From the NCBI GenBank assembly GCA_000687695.1, contig JHWZ01000001.1:248001-312000 (forward strand): 64,000 nt of DNA, written 5' to 3'. The notes below the pieces were generated by a model. It worked only from the letters and a program-made list of their open reading frames with translations. It was not told where the DNA came from and searched no databases. Positions 224 to 62,559 of the stretch are shown one piece after another (positions within the stretch are counted from its first letter, which is position 1; every line of letters starts with the position of its first letter). The stretch comes from Lachnospiraceae bacterium P6B14 (GTDB lineage: Bacteria; Bacillota; Clostridia; Lachnospirales; Lachnospiraceae). Position numbers and translations under genes: made by a program.

Positions 224-494
224 AAATCCGTGCGCCTCACTTCGAATCTGATCCACCGGACGTTACCACAGCAGTTAACTCGGTCCAGGTGACCCCGCGA
301 CACACAAGGAGCATCGCTTAGTGCTGCTTCCGTCAGGACCTGACACGGTTCACGAGTCCCTGTTGCACAGGACCCAAACGTCAACGCCACTTTCCGTGGG
401 CAGCTCCCAAAGATCAAACCCTCCATGAGACAACACCCCTGCTAGAGCGGATTGCAGGTACAGGGCACCGCTAACTCCCCGGCTGCACGGAAAT
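224..494 (-). ncRNA. ffs: Signal recognition particle RNA, large bacterial type
   Basis: On the minus strand the universal SRP domain IV core is present: GTCAGGTCCTGACGGAAGCA lies near 325-344 with the GGAAGCAG asymmetric loop. Alu-domain sequence also fits Clostridia: GGGGAGTTAGCGGTGCCCTG near the 5' end and CTGCTGTGGTAACGTCC near the 3' end. The ends pair as CCGTGC (485-490) with GCACGG (228-233), giving about 270 nt, the usual size of Bacillus/Clostridium scRNA. The RNA scaffolds Ffh and targets nascent membrane and secreted proteins. The 5' end lies about 11 nt after the HD-GYP gene stop, so the promoter may lie inside that gene. Exact ends are estimated. Confidence 0.92.
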
Positions 495-27870: not shown

Positions 27871-28028
27871 AAGGCATCCGCCCGGGTGTCTGACGTTTTC
27901 ATTCGGGACTTCGCTTTCGCCATTCGGATACGTAGCAGTGCATGGCACCAAAATACGGTGCCTACGCACTGACGTATCCGACAGGTCCCTCATAAAAACA
28001 TCAGACAACCCTTGGCTTCGGATGGTTT
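27871..28028 (-). repeat. Family A branched palindrome between tatD and rsmA
   Basis: A 16-bp stem (27887-27902 with 27992-28007) has two G-U pairs only if the minus strand is the RNA. GGGAC/GTCCC continues it. The long arm (CGGATACG with CGTATCCG, then CAGTGC/GCACTG, then GGCACC/GGTGCC around 27924-27980) has internal loops GTA and AT. A short GCGAAAGC hairpin with a GNRA loop follows on the minus strand. It begins about 16 nt after the tatD stop. Confidence 0.85.
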
Positions 28029-40507: not shown

Positions 40508-43291
40508 TCATGAATTGAGATAAAACATCATCTTATCAACATCAATCTCTATCTCATCAGATTCACACTTGTCATACGTTGCTTTTTCTTTTGAACTGGT
40601 TGTGTAGGCTTCGTGATCTCCTGAGTTTACCGCTTCATTGTATGCAACATCATCGCTTTCCGACATCATGGACAAATAAGTCTTATTCTGTTTTACGGTT
40701 CCCATCTCATCAACAAAGCTGTACTCTATCTGCATGCGATAAGACATGGACATCCCTGTATCATCTTTTATCTTCACGCTTAAGACCTTGAAATTATCGC
40801 TGGAACGCAGAAGAGATCTGATATTTTCTACAGCTTTAAGTGCGGATTTTTCCATTTCGTTGAGGCTTTTGAACTTGTCAAGCTTAGTTCCGTCAACGAA
40901 CTGTTTTTCCTGAACGGTCAGCTTTCCGTACTCGTTTTCCAAAGACATGATCTCCGAAAACGGTGTATGATCATCCACAGCCTCCATACGCGTAGATATA
41001 TCCCTGACTGTCTTCAGATCAACATCTTTAAATCTCTCAAGCACAGTAGCGTTTGTGACCTCATTTTTTCTGTCATAAGGAACGGCATTATAGTCGTTTA
41101 ACGCCTTGTTAAAATCCTCCTGAGTCGGGATTGTGCTTTCCTCCAGCTTCCTGATTGACGCTGTCGCCGTCTCTACCGCAGAGGTTGCTTCAGAATTTCC
41201 GAATATCCTCCTTGCGGTAAGAAATCCCAGGAAGCACAGTGCGAGTAAGCCTACTATTATACCCGCTGCCAGGAAAAGCTTTACTGTGTCATGTCCCTTC
41301 TTTTTTTCTTCCTTTGATTCTTCTACATTTGCCGGTACTGCTTCCGGCTCATTTGCTTCCCGGGGTTTTTCCTCGGAAGCAATCAGTCCTGACGACGTTT
41401 TTTTCGCCGCCCCCGGGTTCCGAAAGGGCCGCGCCTTTTCTTTATTTTCGGGCTCCGGATTCATCTTGACCTCCATCTGTGGGCCATCCGGGAATTCTAC
41501 ACGCGGAAGTATCGGCTGCTCTACAGGATCAGGTAGCGGTGACTCCGGTATAGTTGCATCAGGGAAATCAAGCTCATCCAAATGTCCAAACTTGCTCTCC
41601 GATGACGGACTGTCGGGGAAGACAATCTGCGGATTGCCATCCTCGTCATGTATAACACTCGGTTCTATATCTTTTTTCTCGCTACTGAAAGGCATATTTG
41701 GGAGTTCTCCCTGAGGAACCTGCTTCAGTTCGATGACAGGTAACTCTTCCTCTTCTTCAGGCGGTTCTACCCATGACATTATATCTTCTGATTCAGGTAA
41801 CTCTACCTGTAGGAGTTCTTCCTCCTCCTTCGGAAGTTCTACCTGTGACAGTTCTTCTTTTTCCTCTGCCTTCTGCGGCTCGGGCTTTTCGAGATTCAAT
41901 ACCGGTTCTTCCGTTAACTTCAGCTCGGGAACTTCCTCCGGCTCCTTTTTCTCTTTTTCCTTTTTCTTTCCGAACAGTCCACCTAAACGACCTGACTTCT
42001 TCGATTTTTCTTCCTTAACAGGCTCTGATGCCTCTTCCGGCACGGACAAAAACTCGACCGACTCCTCCTCAGGGCTTGCGTCCATGGACTCGACCTTTCC
42101 GAAGCCGGGCATCTCCAAAGCTTTTTCAAGCTTGACTAAAGGACCATCATCCTCTTCTTCCATCTCCGGCTCAGGTCCCTCTATCTCGCCTATATCAGAC
42201 ATCATATCTTCAAGGCCAATAGTCACAGGCTCAGGCGAACTGACCATTGATTCTACAAGTCTTACCGGCTCCTCGGTCTCCTCCTCAAACACTATATCTG
42301 CAGCTATCTCTTCCGCAGCTACAGTTTCTTCCTCTACCGTCAGAACCTCTGCTGCATACTCCTCGGCCAAATCTGACGGGAAACTGATATCAGAGATTTC
42401 AGCTGCTTCTTTTTCATCTTCATCGTTGTCACTGAAAACAATATTAGCGGAATCAGCTTCCGGCATCCCCTCGTCGTCTGACTCGGGGAAGGTTATATCC
42501 GATGACAGTGAAACACTCGCATCCTCTGTTTCTGAGGGTATCCCGAGCACGGTATCCGCATCAGGAGTAGCTCCCTTCGGAGCGTCATAATAAGTAGTAT
42601 CATCCTCAGTCTCACCGAGGCGTGTATCCTCATATTCGTTATCGTCATCTGCCATCGAACCGATCTTGCCCATTTCCGGCTCGTCTTCTCTGATAATATT
42701 GAGCTTCACAGGCTCCGGCTCATCAGCCTTTGATCCTGTAAGTCTTACAGGTTCCTCAGCGGGCTCCTCATACGAAGGCTCGATCCCGGCTTCCGGCTCC
42801 TCTTCTGCCTCAGGCACAACGATCGGCTGTGGCTCCTCAAGTACCACCGGCTCCTCAAGTACGACAGGCTGTGGCTCCTCGAGTACTACAGGCTCCGGCT
42901 CGTCAAGTACGACAGGCTGTGGCTCCTCGAGTACTACAGGCTCCGGCTCGTCAAGTACGACAGGCTGTGGCTCCTCGAATATGGCTGGCTCCGGCTCCTC
43001 TGCCGGCGCCTCCTTGCGGGCCTTGGCCTCCTCCGGGTGCTCCTTATCGTAGATGCCCTGGAGATAATCCTTCCACATGATCTTTGACAGATCAGCAATG
43101 CTGGCACCGCAAACACGGCAATGCATCTGAGATGTCAGATTCATCACTCCGCACGAGCACCACCACTTGGCATTATCCGTCGCTGGCATATAGAGCAGAT
43201 CCGAATCGCGATCGGTTAATTTTTGATACTCCCTCTTGTAGATCTCGGCCAACTCCTTGCCAAGTTCCTCCTCAGCTGTTCTAAGCTCCAT
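40508..43291 (-). CDS. Acidic zinc-ribbon membrane protein with 16-residue repeats
   Basis: The 927-aa protein has a zinc ribbon near the N terminus ([18 protein letters not shown], about 45-62). A very long Glu/Pro/Asp-rich region follows (about 90-660), including tandem 16-residue repeats ([16 protein letters not shown], about 105-152), with a Lys-rich patch (about 435-450). One membrane helix (about 675-697) and a 230-residue C-terminal domain follow, predicted outside. I recognise no family for the C-terminal domain. It begins 5 bp after xseB and ends in an ATGA overlap with the giant kinase gene, suggesting a partner role. Confidence 0.7.
42835..42982. repeat. 48-bp coding tandem repeat
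   Basis: About three units of 48 bp (42850-42975) encode the 16-residue [16 protein letters not shown] repeat. Two consecutive units are identical in sequence, pointing to recent expansion by slippage or unequal exchange. Confidence 0.85.
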
Positions 43292-59695: not shown

Positions 59696-62176
59696 ATGAG
59701 ATACGGTTTTTTTGACAATGACAACCGCGAATACGTCATTCTGCGTCCGGACACACCGACGCCCTGGGCAAACTACCTGGGCTCACCGGAGTACGCAGCA
59801 CTGATATCCAACAACGCAGGCGGATACTCCTTCGCAAAATCAGGAGCAAAGGGGCGTATACTTCGCTACAACTTCAACAGTATGGATTATCCGGGTCGTT
59901 ACATTTATATTAGAGATAACTCATCCGAGGATTATTGGTCTGCTTCATGGAAGCCGGTACGTAAACCCTTTGCGGAAGCCGATGAAGACTACGCAAAGCG
60001 TGCAGGCGTAGACGGTTCCGGTGACATCAGCACCTCTGACAAATTCAAAAACGTCGTCCGCTACGGCATGGGCTATGCTCGTTTCATCACAGACTATGCC
60101 GGTATCAGAAGCGTGGCAACCTACTATGTGCCGAAGGATGCAACCTATGAAGTGTGGGAGCTTACCCTGAAAAATACCACGCAGGAGGCTAAAGAACTCA
60201 CCATCACCGGTTATGCCGAATTTACCAATGATCCATACTACTCGAACGATATGGTAAACCTGCAGTACACACAGTTCATCACGAGAACTGCTTTTAACGA
60301 AAACAGAATCCTACAGGAGGTAAACGGTAACCTCGATATCATCGCGGCACGTGACGATATCGATGACAAGCATGTCAGACGTCGCTTCTTCGGACTCGCC
60401 GGAGAAAAGGTTTCCTCCTACTGCGGAGACAGAGCCGACTTCCTCGGAAACGGTCATGACTACTCGGATCCGATCGGAGTCACAAGCGGAAAGCTTTCCG
60501 ATACCACCAACTATAACGCAAACAGCTGCGGCGCCCTCTCAACCGTAATCAAACTGGCTCCGGGAGAGACAAAGACCATAGCATTTTTGCTCGGAGAAAG
60601 AGATGATAAGGAAGCAGGCGAAATAGTTTCTTCCTATTATAACAGTGTAGCAGATACCTGCGCATCAGAACTTAAGGATCTCGTTTCTGATTGGCATGCA
60701 CGTTTCGACGCTCTTCAGATCGACACCCCGTCACAGGAGTTCAACACAATGATGAACACCTGGCATGCATACAACTGCTTCATGACCTTCATCTGGTCCA
60801 GAGCTGCTTCATTCATTTACTGTGGCGAGCGAAACGGCTTCGGCTACCGCGACACCGTGCAGGATATACAGGGAGTTATCCATCTCCGTCCGGACATGGC
60901 AAAGAAAATGATCGTATTCATGCTTTCTGCTCAGGTTCACCACGGCGGCGGACTTCCGCTCGTGAAGTACACCCACAATCCGGGACATGAAGATACACCT
61001 GAGGACGAGTCCTACGTAAAGGAGACCGGACATCCGGCGTACAGAGCCGACGATGCACTCTGGCTGTTCCCGACTATCTGGAAATATATTTCGGAAACGG
61101 GTGACACGGCATTTTTGGATGAAGTTATCCCGTTTGCCAACAAGGATGAAGGCACGGTATATGAGCATTTGAAACGCGCCATCGACTTTTCGGATAACCA
61201 TCTCGGTGCTCACGGCATGCCCGCCGGACTCCACGCCGACTGGAACGACTGTCTCAGACTCGGTGCAATGGGCGAGTCTTCCTTCGTTGCCGAGCAGTAC
61301 TACTATGCACTGACAATACTTCAGCGCTTCGCGGACATCAAGGGAGATTCTTCCTATAAGAGTGAACTTGAAGCCAAGCAGAAAAAGTTCGGCGACCTCG
61401 TACAGGAACTCTGCTGGAACGAAGACCGTTTCCTCAGAGGCTACAAAGATACGGGAGAGCGCATAGGTGATAGAAATGATCCGGAGGCAAACATGTGGCT
61501 GAACCCACAGAGCTGGGGCGTGATCAGCGGACTTGCTTCAAAGGAGCAGGCCGAAACCTCCATGCAGCAGGTATTTGAAAGACTGAATACCGACTTCGGT
61601 GCGGTTCTCATGGATCCGCCATACCACGCGCATGCGTTCGATGGCGCTCTCGCCGTACTTTTCAACCCGGGTTCCAAAGAAAACGCAGGTATCTTTTCAC
61701 AGTCTCAGGGTTGGCTTATCCTCGCCGAGTCTCTCCTCGGTCACGGAAACCGCGCATTTAAATACTTTATGGAAAACAACCCTGCCGCTCAGAACGACAT
61801 AGCGGAAAAGCGAACCATCGAGCCTTACTGCTTCGGTCAGTTCACCGAAGGCAAGGCGAGCCTTAACCACGGACGTTCACATGTTCACTGGCTCACCGGT
61901 ACCGCATCGACGATCATGGTTGGATGCGTCGAGGGTATCCTCGGTCTCCGTCCGGATCCCGCAGGCATCCGCCTCGCTCCGTCGATCCCGTCAGACTGGA
62001 AGTCTTTCTCCATGGACAAAACATTCCGTGGCAAGAAGATGCACATCACGGTGGAGAATCCAAACGGACACGAGTCGGGCTTTACCTCGCTTACGCTTAA
62101 TGGCGAGACACTTTCCGATAATTACATTCCGGCTGACAAGCTTGCATCTGAAAACCAAATCGTGTTGACGATTTAA
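59696..62176 (+). CDS. GH94 cellobiose/cellodextrin phosphorylase-like enzyme
   Basis: The 826-aa protein matches family GH94: an N-terminal beta-sandwich (about 1-290), a helical linker and an (alpha/alpha)6 barrel with GYRDTVQDIQG and the catalytic acid in LHADWNDCLRL (about 510), then a C-terminal beta domain. The family splits beta-1,4-glucosidic bonds with phosphate, giving glucose 1-phosphate. Cellobiose and cellodextrin are the most likely substrates; chitobiose and others cannot be excluded. No signal peptide, so it acts in the cytoplasm on imported sugar. TATGGAGGA precedes the ATG. Its stop lies in the arm of a family A palindrome. Confidence 0.92.
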   Translation: MRYGFFDNDNREYVILRPDTPTPWANYLGSPEYAALISNNAGGYSFAKSGAKGRILRYNFNSMDYPGRYIYIRDNSSEDYWSASWKPVRKPFAEADEDYAKRAGVDGSGDISTSDKFKNVVRYGMGYARFITDYAGIRSVATYYVPKDATYEVWELTLKNTTQEAKELTITGYAEFTNDPYYSNDMVNLQYTQFITRTAFNENRILQEVNGNLDIIAARDDIDDKHVRRRFFGLAGEKVSSYCGDRADFLGNGHDYSDPIGVTSGKLSDTTNYNANSCGALSTVIKLAPGETKTIAFLLGERDDKEAGEIVSSYYNSVADTCASELKDLVSDWHARFDALQIDTPSQEFNTMMNTWHAYNCFMTFIWSRAASFIYCGERNGFGYRDTVQDIQGVIHLRPDMAKKMIVFMLSAQVHHGGGLPLVKYTHNPGHEDTPEDESYVKETGHPAYRADDALWLFPTIWKYISETGDTAFLDEVIPFANKDEGTVYEHLKRAIDFSDNHLGAHGMPAGLHADWNDCLRLGAMGESSFVAEQYYYALTILQRFADIKGDSSYKSELEAKQKKFGDLVQELCWNEDRFLRGYKDTGERIGDRNDPEANMWLNPQSWGVISGLASKEQAETSMQQVFERLNTDFGAVLMDPPYHAHAFDGALAVLFNPGSKENAGIFSQSQGWLILAESLLGHGNRAFKYFMENNPAAQNDIAEKRTIEPYCFGQFTEGKASLNHGRSHVHWLTGTASTIMVGCVEGILGLRPDPAGIRLAPSIPSDWKSFSMDKTFRGKKMHITVENPNGHESGFTSLTLNGETLSDNYIPADKLASENQIVLTI

Positions 62177-62319
62177 AAAGAGATCTTATCGTGTATCTGC
62201 GGGGGCACGCTTTCGCTTTTTTCCCGAACGCAGCGGTGCATGGCAGCACAGTACGCTGCCTACGCACCGGCGTTCGCGACACATCCCCCGCAGTGATACA
62301 CATATAAGATCTCTTTTTT
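62175..62319 (-). repeat. Family A branched palindrome, copy 2
   Basis: An outer stem AAAAAGAGATCTTAT pairs with ATAAGATCTCTTTTT; GTGTATC/GATACAC and GCGGGGG/CCCCCGC continue it. On the minus strand a long arm CGAACGC/GCGTTCG, CGGTGC/GCACCG, GGCAGC/GCTGCC follows, then GCGAAAGC with a GNRA loop. Both outer ends have T-tracts on opposite strands, so it can terminate in both directions. The GH94 stop lies in its first arm. Confidence 0.88.
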
Positions 62320-62406: not shown

Positions 62407-62559
62407 GGGGATCTTATAAGTGTATCACTGCGGGGGATGTCCATCATACGTCGTTGCGCAGGCGAGGTAAGGGAACTCTATGAGTTCCCTCGAGCCGCAC
62501 AACGTGACGTATGATGAAAAAGCGCAAGCGTGCCCCCGCAGATACACAATAAGATCCCC
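62407..62559 (+). repeat. Family A branched palindrome, copy 3
   Basis: GGGGATCTTAT pairs with ATAAGATCCCC, then GTGTATC/GATACAC and GCGGGGG/CCCCCGC. On the plus strand the long arm is CATCATACGTC/GACGTATGATG with an inner AGGGAACT/AGTTCCCT, then an A-run and GCGCAAGC with a GNRA loop. It is inverted relative to copy 2 and shares its outer 40 bases almost exactly. Confidence 0.88.

Follow-up and report, generated by a model that had tools for sequence, protein, structure and literature searches.

A large family of putatively non-coding, probably mobile palindromes with a conserved three-armed core in Lachnospiraceae

The window, the whole stretch of 64,000 nucleotides analysed here (G000:C1:248001-312000), comes from the 2.69-Mb genome of Lachnospiraceae bacterium P6B14 (G000) and carries three copies of a palindromic element (Table 1). 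Copy 1 is the whole palindrome between two genes, which we take to be tatD-like and ksgA-like, and the strand that bears the GNRA loop (the GNRA strand) is sense to both. Its long arm shows a 2-nt bulge and an apical loop, both in the sequence and in the predicted fold. Copy 2 lies immediately downstream of a plus-strand frame (59696-62176) and has a terminator-like outermost stem (AAAAAGAGATCTTAT / ATAAGATCTCTTTTTT). Copy 3 has a type II arm (see below) and is the inverted neighbour of copy 2; the outer stems are common to these two copies as inverted repeats, with 95% identity over 40 nt. It is of a divergent type and bears an extra apical hairpin, and hairpin modules of this kind were also found in other copies of the family, either in the apical loop or replacing the GNRA loop. 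Elsewhere in the window, we noted a bacterial large SRP RNA (228-490, minus strand) and seven overlapping repeat copies with 24-bp spacing (42805-43000), the latter within a long minus-strand frame.

Table 1. Element copies in the window and their parts (window positions).
Feature	Position	Strand	Basis
Copy 1 (no. 36 of 63)	27871..28028	minus (GNRA strand)	Model match 27893-28001, 76 bits; RNA fold
Copy 1 long arm	27925..27980	minus	CGGATACG...CGTATCCG on the plus strand; coordinates by eye
Copy 1 GC-GAAA-GC hairpin	27913..27920	minus	Sequence and fold; counted by eye
Copy 2 (no. 2 of 63)	62175..62319	minus (GNRA strand)	Model match 62191-62301, 125 bits; fold
Copy 2 long arm	62225..62276	minus	Sequence and fold; counted by eye
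Copy 2 GC-GAAA-GC hairpin	62209..62216	minus	Sequence; counted by eye
Copy 3 (no. 28 of 63)	62407..62559	plus (GNRA strand)	Model match 62420-62547, 94.6 bits; fold
Copy 3 long arm	62442..62516	plus	Sequence and fold; counted by eye
Copy 3 extra apical hairpin GGGAACTC-TAT-GAGTTCCC	62471..62489	plus	Sequence; orthologues with and without it (nos. 6, 49)
Copy 3 GC-GCAA-GC hairpin	62522..62529	plus	Sequence; counted by eye

The RNA folds predicted for the GNRA strand of copies 1, 2 and 3 reached -92.5, -87.8 and -87.5 kcal/mol (z = -10.7, -11.2 and -10.5), and the opposite strands of copies 1 and 3 also folded strongly (z = -8.6 and -12.6); for each of these five folds, none of 200 shuffled sequences folded as well. 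As DNA, both strands of copy 1 are predicted to fold (z = -8.5 and -7.5). A sequence-only reading of the window had described three recurrent copies at these sites. The covariance model described below recovered all three, their outer stems extend to about the limits proposed at the time, and all fold well beyond chance (z between -8.6 and -12.6), which confirms that the observation is real. That reading had also matched the design to no named RNA family. At gathering scores, Rfam 15 reported only the SRP RNA and tRNA over the whole window, and for six element loci inspected at E values up to 10 nothing came near a gathering score. These searches give no support to a known Rfam riboswitch, ribozyme or small RNA. 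No description of the three-armed family was found in the literature searched, a body of text that leaves most subscription journals outside its coverage.

Searching G000 at the DNA level with copy 2 as the query yielded 36 matches. From the 30 loci returned by this search we assembled an alignment of 16 G000 copies (A3), omitting 14 loci that were duplicates, carried inserted hairpins, represented copy 2 itself matched in reverse (one locus) or belonged to a third type. The locus of copy 1 is outside A3, being of this third type with its hairpin misaligned. A covariance model built from these 16 copies (R1) found 63 copies in G000 at an E value of 0.001 or better, numbered no. 0 to no. 62, with window copies 1, 2 and 3 corresponding to nos. 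36, 2 and 28. Several types can be told apart in this genome: type I with the arm GGTGC-GTAG, type II with GTTGC-GCAG, and the third type, that of copy 1, marked by GGGACC at the junction.

The core of the element spans about 110 nt and consists of an 8-9 bp stem with a 2-nt bulge just outside it, the three-way junction, the GC-GNRA-GC hairpin and the long arm, which is interrupted by a bulged base and by a bulge of 2 nt and closes in a GTATTTT-like apical loop. Beyond the core there is a further stem, variable in sequence but kept complementary. Over the 40 pairs of A3, 93.1% of cells held standard pairs, falling to 21-52% when the structure was slid along the alignment. Changes on both sides were seen in 28 pairs, with 132 such cells compared with 43 in shuffles. 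The paired changes that the sequence-only reading had pointed out (CAGTGC/CGGTGC and GGCACC/GGCAGC) can be read directly from the sequence, as can the variation of the GNRA loop between GAAA and GCAA. Its proposal that GTA and AT stay open within the long arm fails in this genome, since the bases pair in all 16 copies: column 40-63 is G.U in 11 and G-C in 5, and column 41-62 is U-A in 10 and C-G in 6, with one bulged A beside them. Across genera, one of these two pairs is mostly open (not paired in 24 of 42 sequences).

These 42 sequences form the alignment of a second model (R2), with 34 matches from 29 other genomes and eight from G000, fitted to the structure. Here, 38 of the 40 pairs change on both sides (543 cells compared with 163 in shuffles), and 92.6% of cells are paired compared with 61.7% in shuffles. 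Both pairs of the GC-GNRA-GC hairpin, which are invariant in the 16 copies of A3, show changes on both sides across genera. The unpaired motifs are constant. The three-armed element is an uncatalogued structured family without an Rfam entry. The sequence-only reading had set a covariance-model search of the genome and its relatives as the check on its proposal, and further copies turned up in both, 63 in G000 and matches in 122 of 299 family genomes, with covariation exceeding that of shuffles. Neither of the outcomes that it had named as refuting its proposal was seen, and a recurrent three-way-junction family with paired changes and constant unpaired motifs is supported.

Within the family, R1 matched 72 of 299 genomes and, in the genus, 20 of 39, and R2 extended the family figure to the 122 genomes given above. 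Of the 269 genomes that did not feed R2, 92 match; the other 30 did feed it. In a sample of 398 genomes from the phylum, apparently with at least five members of the family among those listed, R2 matched five, four of the family itself and one (G693) of another family. The match in G693 (L222) is a single genuine-looking copy with recognisable core motifs, which may stem from transfer or from contamination. A degenerate-pattern search returned 20 stretches in named genomes, including Brotaphodocola catenula, Kineothrix sp. MSJ-39 and several Lachnospiraceae MAGs. Two exact element patterns gave no matches in viral contigs, leaving carriage on such contigs unsupported. Three species of the genus hold 53-63 copies per genome, and the presence of the element is patchy between species of the genus. 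In the genome G110, whole elements also occur in tandem arrays, with three copies of 187 bp at L315:5411-5975 and four of 164 bp at L317:5084-5748. We regard these arrays as tandem duplications; no partner gene was noticed among the frames listed there, which were read without family searches.

Genomic context was scored for 177 copies, comprising the 63 of G000, 44 of 45 from G316 and G302 (without a weak match), 41 of 42 from G323 (without a weak remnant) and 29 from other genera, one per locus. According to a simple gene caller, the neighbouring genes were co-directional for 126 copies, convergent for 17 and divergent for 5; the remaining 29 were not assignable, 24 lying in a called frame that is probably false and 5 at contig ends. 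The elements avoid divergent (promoter-only) gaps, which in the G323 background of 1.16 Mb number 67, compared with 39 convergent ones. Relative to co-directional genes, the GNRA strand was antisense in 80 cases and sense in 46, and in other genera alone the figures were 8 and 11. Another gene caller, applied to G000 alone, scored 34 copies as antisense and 15 as sense, placed 9 between convergent and 2 between divergent genes, and left 3 undetermined. We claim no probability for any of these counts because orthologues are counted more than once. The outer stem is not generally followed by a run of T residues: across the 63 copies there were on average 3.1 A in the 9 nt upstream and 2.7 T in the 9 nt downstream of it, so that a rule placing the element always in a terminator was rejected.

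We then compared the sites of the three window copies between species. The orthologues of copy 1 in G323 and G316 are almost unchanged, with the orientation kept in all three species. At the same junction, G303 and G305 carry a like-oriented core that differs in its outer stems and arms, a plain hairpin occupies the site in G302, and no core was present in the stretch examined in G314, G304, G301, G329 and G331. At the site of copies 2 and 3, G323 retains only a remnant of copy 3. In G316 both copies are missing, and the flanking matches lie about 57 nt apart. Downstream of the same gene, however, G301 carries a core (L295) oriented like copy 2, and for this reason we dropped the idea that copies 2 and 3 are young. 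From these comparisons it follows that the same gene ends have been occupied repeatedly, either by descent or by repeated arrival.

Eighteen of the 63 copies could be aligned through to G323. The comparison is two-peaked, a copy being either kept nearly unchanged or replaced by another type: core and near stem differ by 0-4.7% in 11 copies and by 14-36% in the other 7. In the 11 kept copies, the difference rises from 1.46% in the core to 4.8% in the outer 40 nt and 9.5% in the far flanks, a contrast whose size is biased because these copies were chosen by low difference. The clearest single cases are no. 9, with 0 of 151 positions different compared with 8.0% in its flanks, and copy 1, with 4 of 149 compared with 17.4%. 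In 16 orthologous copies, 986 pairs were unchanged and 2 differed on both sides; 9 had gained or lost a G.U and 5 an A.C, 13 had changed in other ways, and 13 contained gaps. Copies that change six times slower than their flanks would not be expected of every mere parasite and hint at a function for the host.

To characterise the units in which the core is found, we retrieved copies with equal or nearly equal scores in five genera, and those of G110 were left out of the analysis. All four copies fetched from G166 are embedded in a 272-273-bp unit whose ends centre on GGGTGTCAAAAGCCCTTA and which is flanked by target duplications of 8 bp (8/8, 8/8, 7/8 and 7/8 matching). Likewise, all three from G094 are contained in units of 211 bp; these have TAGGC..TTGCGAAACTC-type ends and duplications of 10-11 bp (11/11, 10/10 and 10/11). 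Five of the six copies from G037 belong to units of 490-495 bp with ends around AAACTGCAGTTTAAA, the sixth differing on the left, and no clear target duplication was found around these five. The G037 unit contains two opposed cores, both of which match the model in one copy (L087) and are recognised by alignment in the others. In G106, two of three copies were comparable over both flanks; they part early on one side, leaving their ends undefined. The inverted-repeat ends of the G166, G094 and G037 units look unrelated to each other, while the core is the same. No gene was noticed within the units. Units holding the core have moved.

In G000 itself, nos. 42 (C3:101512) and 43 (C14:50896) share an identical stretch of 157 bp, outer stem included, and have unrelated flanks; inspected by eye, this unit shows no target duplication and no ends beyond the stem. 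The comparison with G323 covered 1.16 Mb, about half of the genome, and 39 of the 63 G000 copies could be placed there: 18 had a like core, 2 were inverted, with the whole hairpin turned in place, and 19 had another core, a remnant or none. Several of the absences are deletions that leave one arm, and absence alone is therefore no proof of insertion. At two loci (nos. 6 and 49), G000 and G323 differ by a small hairpin module inside the loop.

A further case is the gap between two genes that, from their protein ends, we take to be xylA and xylB. In G302 and G000, it contains a 13-bp stem, GGAATGTGTCAAC / GTTGACACATTCC, whose arms are 3 nt apart; T residues come directly after it. In G323, the arms of the same stem are separated by 128 nt that match R2 (74.8 bits), and in G316 a homologous stem, GGAATATGTAAAC / GTTTACATATTCC, encloses a 110-nt insert that also matches (107.1 bits); the G302 locus has no R2 match. 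Identity to G000 across the region is 93% for G323, 90% for G316 and 82% for G302, so the plain hairpin is also present in the most distant of the four. Here the core sits in the loop of an older terminator hairpin. The cores of G323 and G316 are of different types, and two insertions, or one insertion with later replacement and loss in G000, make about equally short histories. When we looked for more pairs of filled and empty hairpins, 28 of the 44 G316 and G302 copies could be placed, giving seven candidate empty sites, none of which was a plain host hairpin and one of which keeps a single arm; xylA is the sole clean example.

Taken together, we think it probable that these sequences form a large family of putatively non-coding mobile palindromes of the MITE or REP kind with a conserved folded core. 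The element appears to work like such a palindrome, settling mostly at the 3' side of genes. MITE-like features are the short units, the many copies and recent movement (63 copies and the identical 157-bp pair), the terminal inverted repeats in G166, G094 and G037 and, in the first two genera, the target duplications. Unlike in MITEs, the ends differ completely between genera while the three-way-junction core is constant, and in G000 neither ends nor a duplication were seen by eye. On this reading, the outer stem is either a host hairpin holding the core in its loop, as at xylA, or the stem made by the ends of a moving unit, as in two genera. The folded core would be the recognised part, most likely while it forms a hairpin of single-stranded DNA as a gene is transcribed or the DNA replicated; core-bearing units could be moved in trans by the transposases that belong to other elements; and a settled copy would act, on the 3' side of genes, as a strong hairpin, its pairing kept by selection. 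A bolder version, which we offer tentatively as one possibility, is that the core is a self-contained folded module made of RNA or of single-stranded DNA. It would seek out, or be captured by, the loops of terminators, of MITEs with unrelated ends and of its own relatives, in this way riding several transposition systems across Lachnospiraceae, and would then be retained under strong selection as a 3'-end element. A constant folded core in mobile units with different ends is unusual, and would mean either that the core is needed for movement in some way or that it is a useful structure carried by several mobile elements. The element family, which lacks an Rfam entry, spans many related genera of gut bacteria; within one bacterial family, roughly two in five of the genera sampled contain it (122 of 299 genomes). 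It provides a natural data set on the interplay of palindromes, terminators and transposition.

The same core could instead be primarily a functional RNA, that is, a structured 3'-UTR or intercistronic element (a stabiliser, processing site, terminator or protein-binding RNA) that exists in many copies and has spread as the cargo of mobile units. We consider this rather unlikely, although much of the evidence would suit it, namely the covariation in 38 of 40 pairs, the GNRA loop and constant unpaired motifs, the slow core of the 11 kept sites (1.46% compared with 9.5% in the far flanks), the avoidance of divergent gaps, and the conservation of copy 1 and its orientation in three species together with the like-oriented cores of G303 and G305 at that junction. 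An RNA role for the GNRA strand would predict a clear excess of G.U over A.C on it. In 91 distinct rows of a further alignment (A4; 95 matches, the rows being related and two near-fixed columns left out), G.U exceeded A.C by 15 to 3 in the arms, a weak lean towards RNA, but the outer stems were near parity (36 to 25). The mixed orientation to co-directional genes (46 sense, 80 antisense), the patchy presence between species of the genus, the two copies inverted in place and the lack of any slowing when all 18 aligned copies are pooled (10.4% for the element, 10.5% for the flanks) also speak against it. The earlier interpretation of the element as a selected RNA structure is therefore partly supported: the paired changes are borne out by covariation, whereas their RNA nature is not, with G.U only modestly above A.C (9 to 5 among the changes in the 16 orthologous copies). 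Mobility, seen here in identical copies at unrelated loci, in units with inverted-repeat ends and target duplications and in the occupied terminator loop, was out of reach of the sequence-only reading.

Nor is covariation decisive for selection on RNA, because template switching during replication can also build, mend and maintain hairpin stems and yield paired changes (PMC8794818). It is very improbable, in our view, that the perfect stems and paired changes are a mutational product of this process and of palindrome repair, arising without selection on structure. G.U and A.C are indeed scarce (with the near-fixed columns included, G.U fills 98 and A.C 44 of 3576 paired-column cells, or 2.7% and 1.2%), and hairpin deletions and inversions were seen between G000 and G323, but the unpaired motifs are constant across genera, and the arms do not co-drift freely, since only 2 pairs changed on both sides compared with 986 unchanged in the 16 orthologues.

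That the family consists of REPIN-like elements moved by a RAYT (Y1 tyrosine transposase) is highly improbable: palindromes downstream of genes, sometimes in opposed pairs, and a Y1 transposase (PF01797) in all four element-bearing genomes tested from other genera (G268, G207, G290 and G120) would fit, but PF01797 is absent from all nine element-bearing genomes tested in the genus (G000, G323, G316, G301, G302, G303, G313, G321 and G305, several of them incomplete) and present in four element-free ones (G333, G335, G319 and G308), there is no unpaired GTAG tag, the GTAG-like bases lying inside the element arm, and single-strand Y1 transposition does not fit target duplications of 8 and 10-11 bp. 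For the genus, the absence of PF01797 speaks against a RAYT unless a very distant Y1 protein escaped the search. In the same nine carriers, reverse transcriptase (PF00078) was absent from five, and IS110 (PF01548) passed the cut-off in three, was weak in four and gave nothing in two. With each lacking in some or all of the nine, Y1, reverse transcriptase and IS110 are unsupported as a general mobiliser. Integron attC sites are folded single strands with extrahelical bases, variable sequence and conserved pairing, and the element resembles them in its folded strand, its extrahelical bases and the keeping of pairing over sequence; no integron boxes were noticed by eye near it.

REP, REPIN and BIME sequences share with the element their palindromes downstream of genes, their head-to-head pairs and, for some REPs, a position inside larger palindromes, the last also a point in favour of REPIN kinship (PMC3733652). 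In the same paper, REPs are 20-40 bp long with an unpaired tag, and CGTC-tagged REPs have an unpaired terminal CGTC, an 8-9 bp stem and a CCA tail, whereas the element core has about 110 nt and three arms, and its CGTC (columns 31-34) is paired in nearly all 42 sequences. The paper contains no mention of Firmicutes, Clostridium, Lachnospir or Eubacterium. The GC clusters and hairpin or double-hairpin elements of fungal and sponge mitochondria are likewise reported as mobile hairpins (PMC4478555, PMC2800124), but they belong to organelle genomes and have other sizes, and nothing points to a common origin with the three-armed element.

Two further kinds of hairpin were observed in G323. A second intergenic hairpin with GTGAGTTTT...AAAAGCTCAC arms lies beside the element or replaces it (L136:6350-6800 and L114:12614-12776) and is perhaps another mobile palindrome. 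In the L147:1844 region, a larger hairpin has GGAAACTC...GAGTTTCC arms, a motif also present in the small module of element loops and in part of the G094 unit ends, and this small module may be a separate element.
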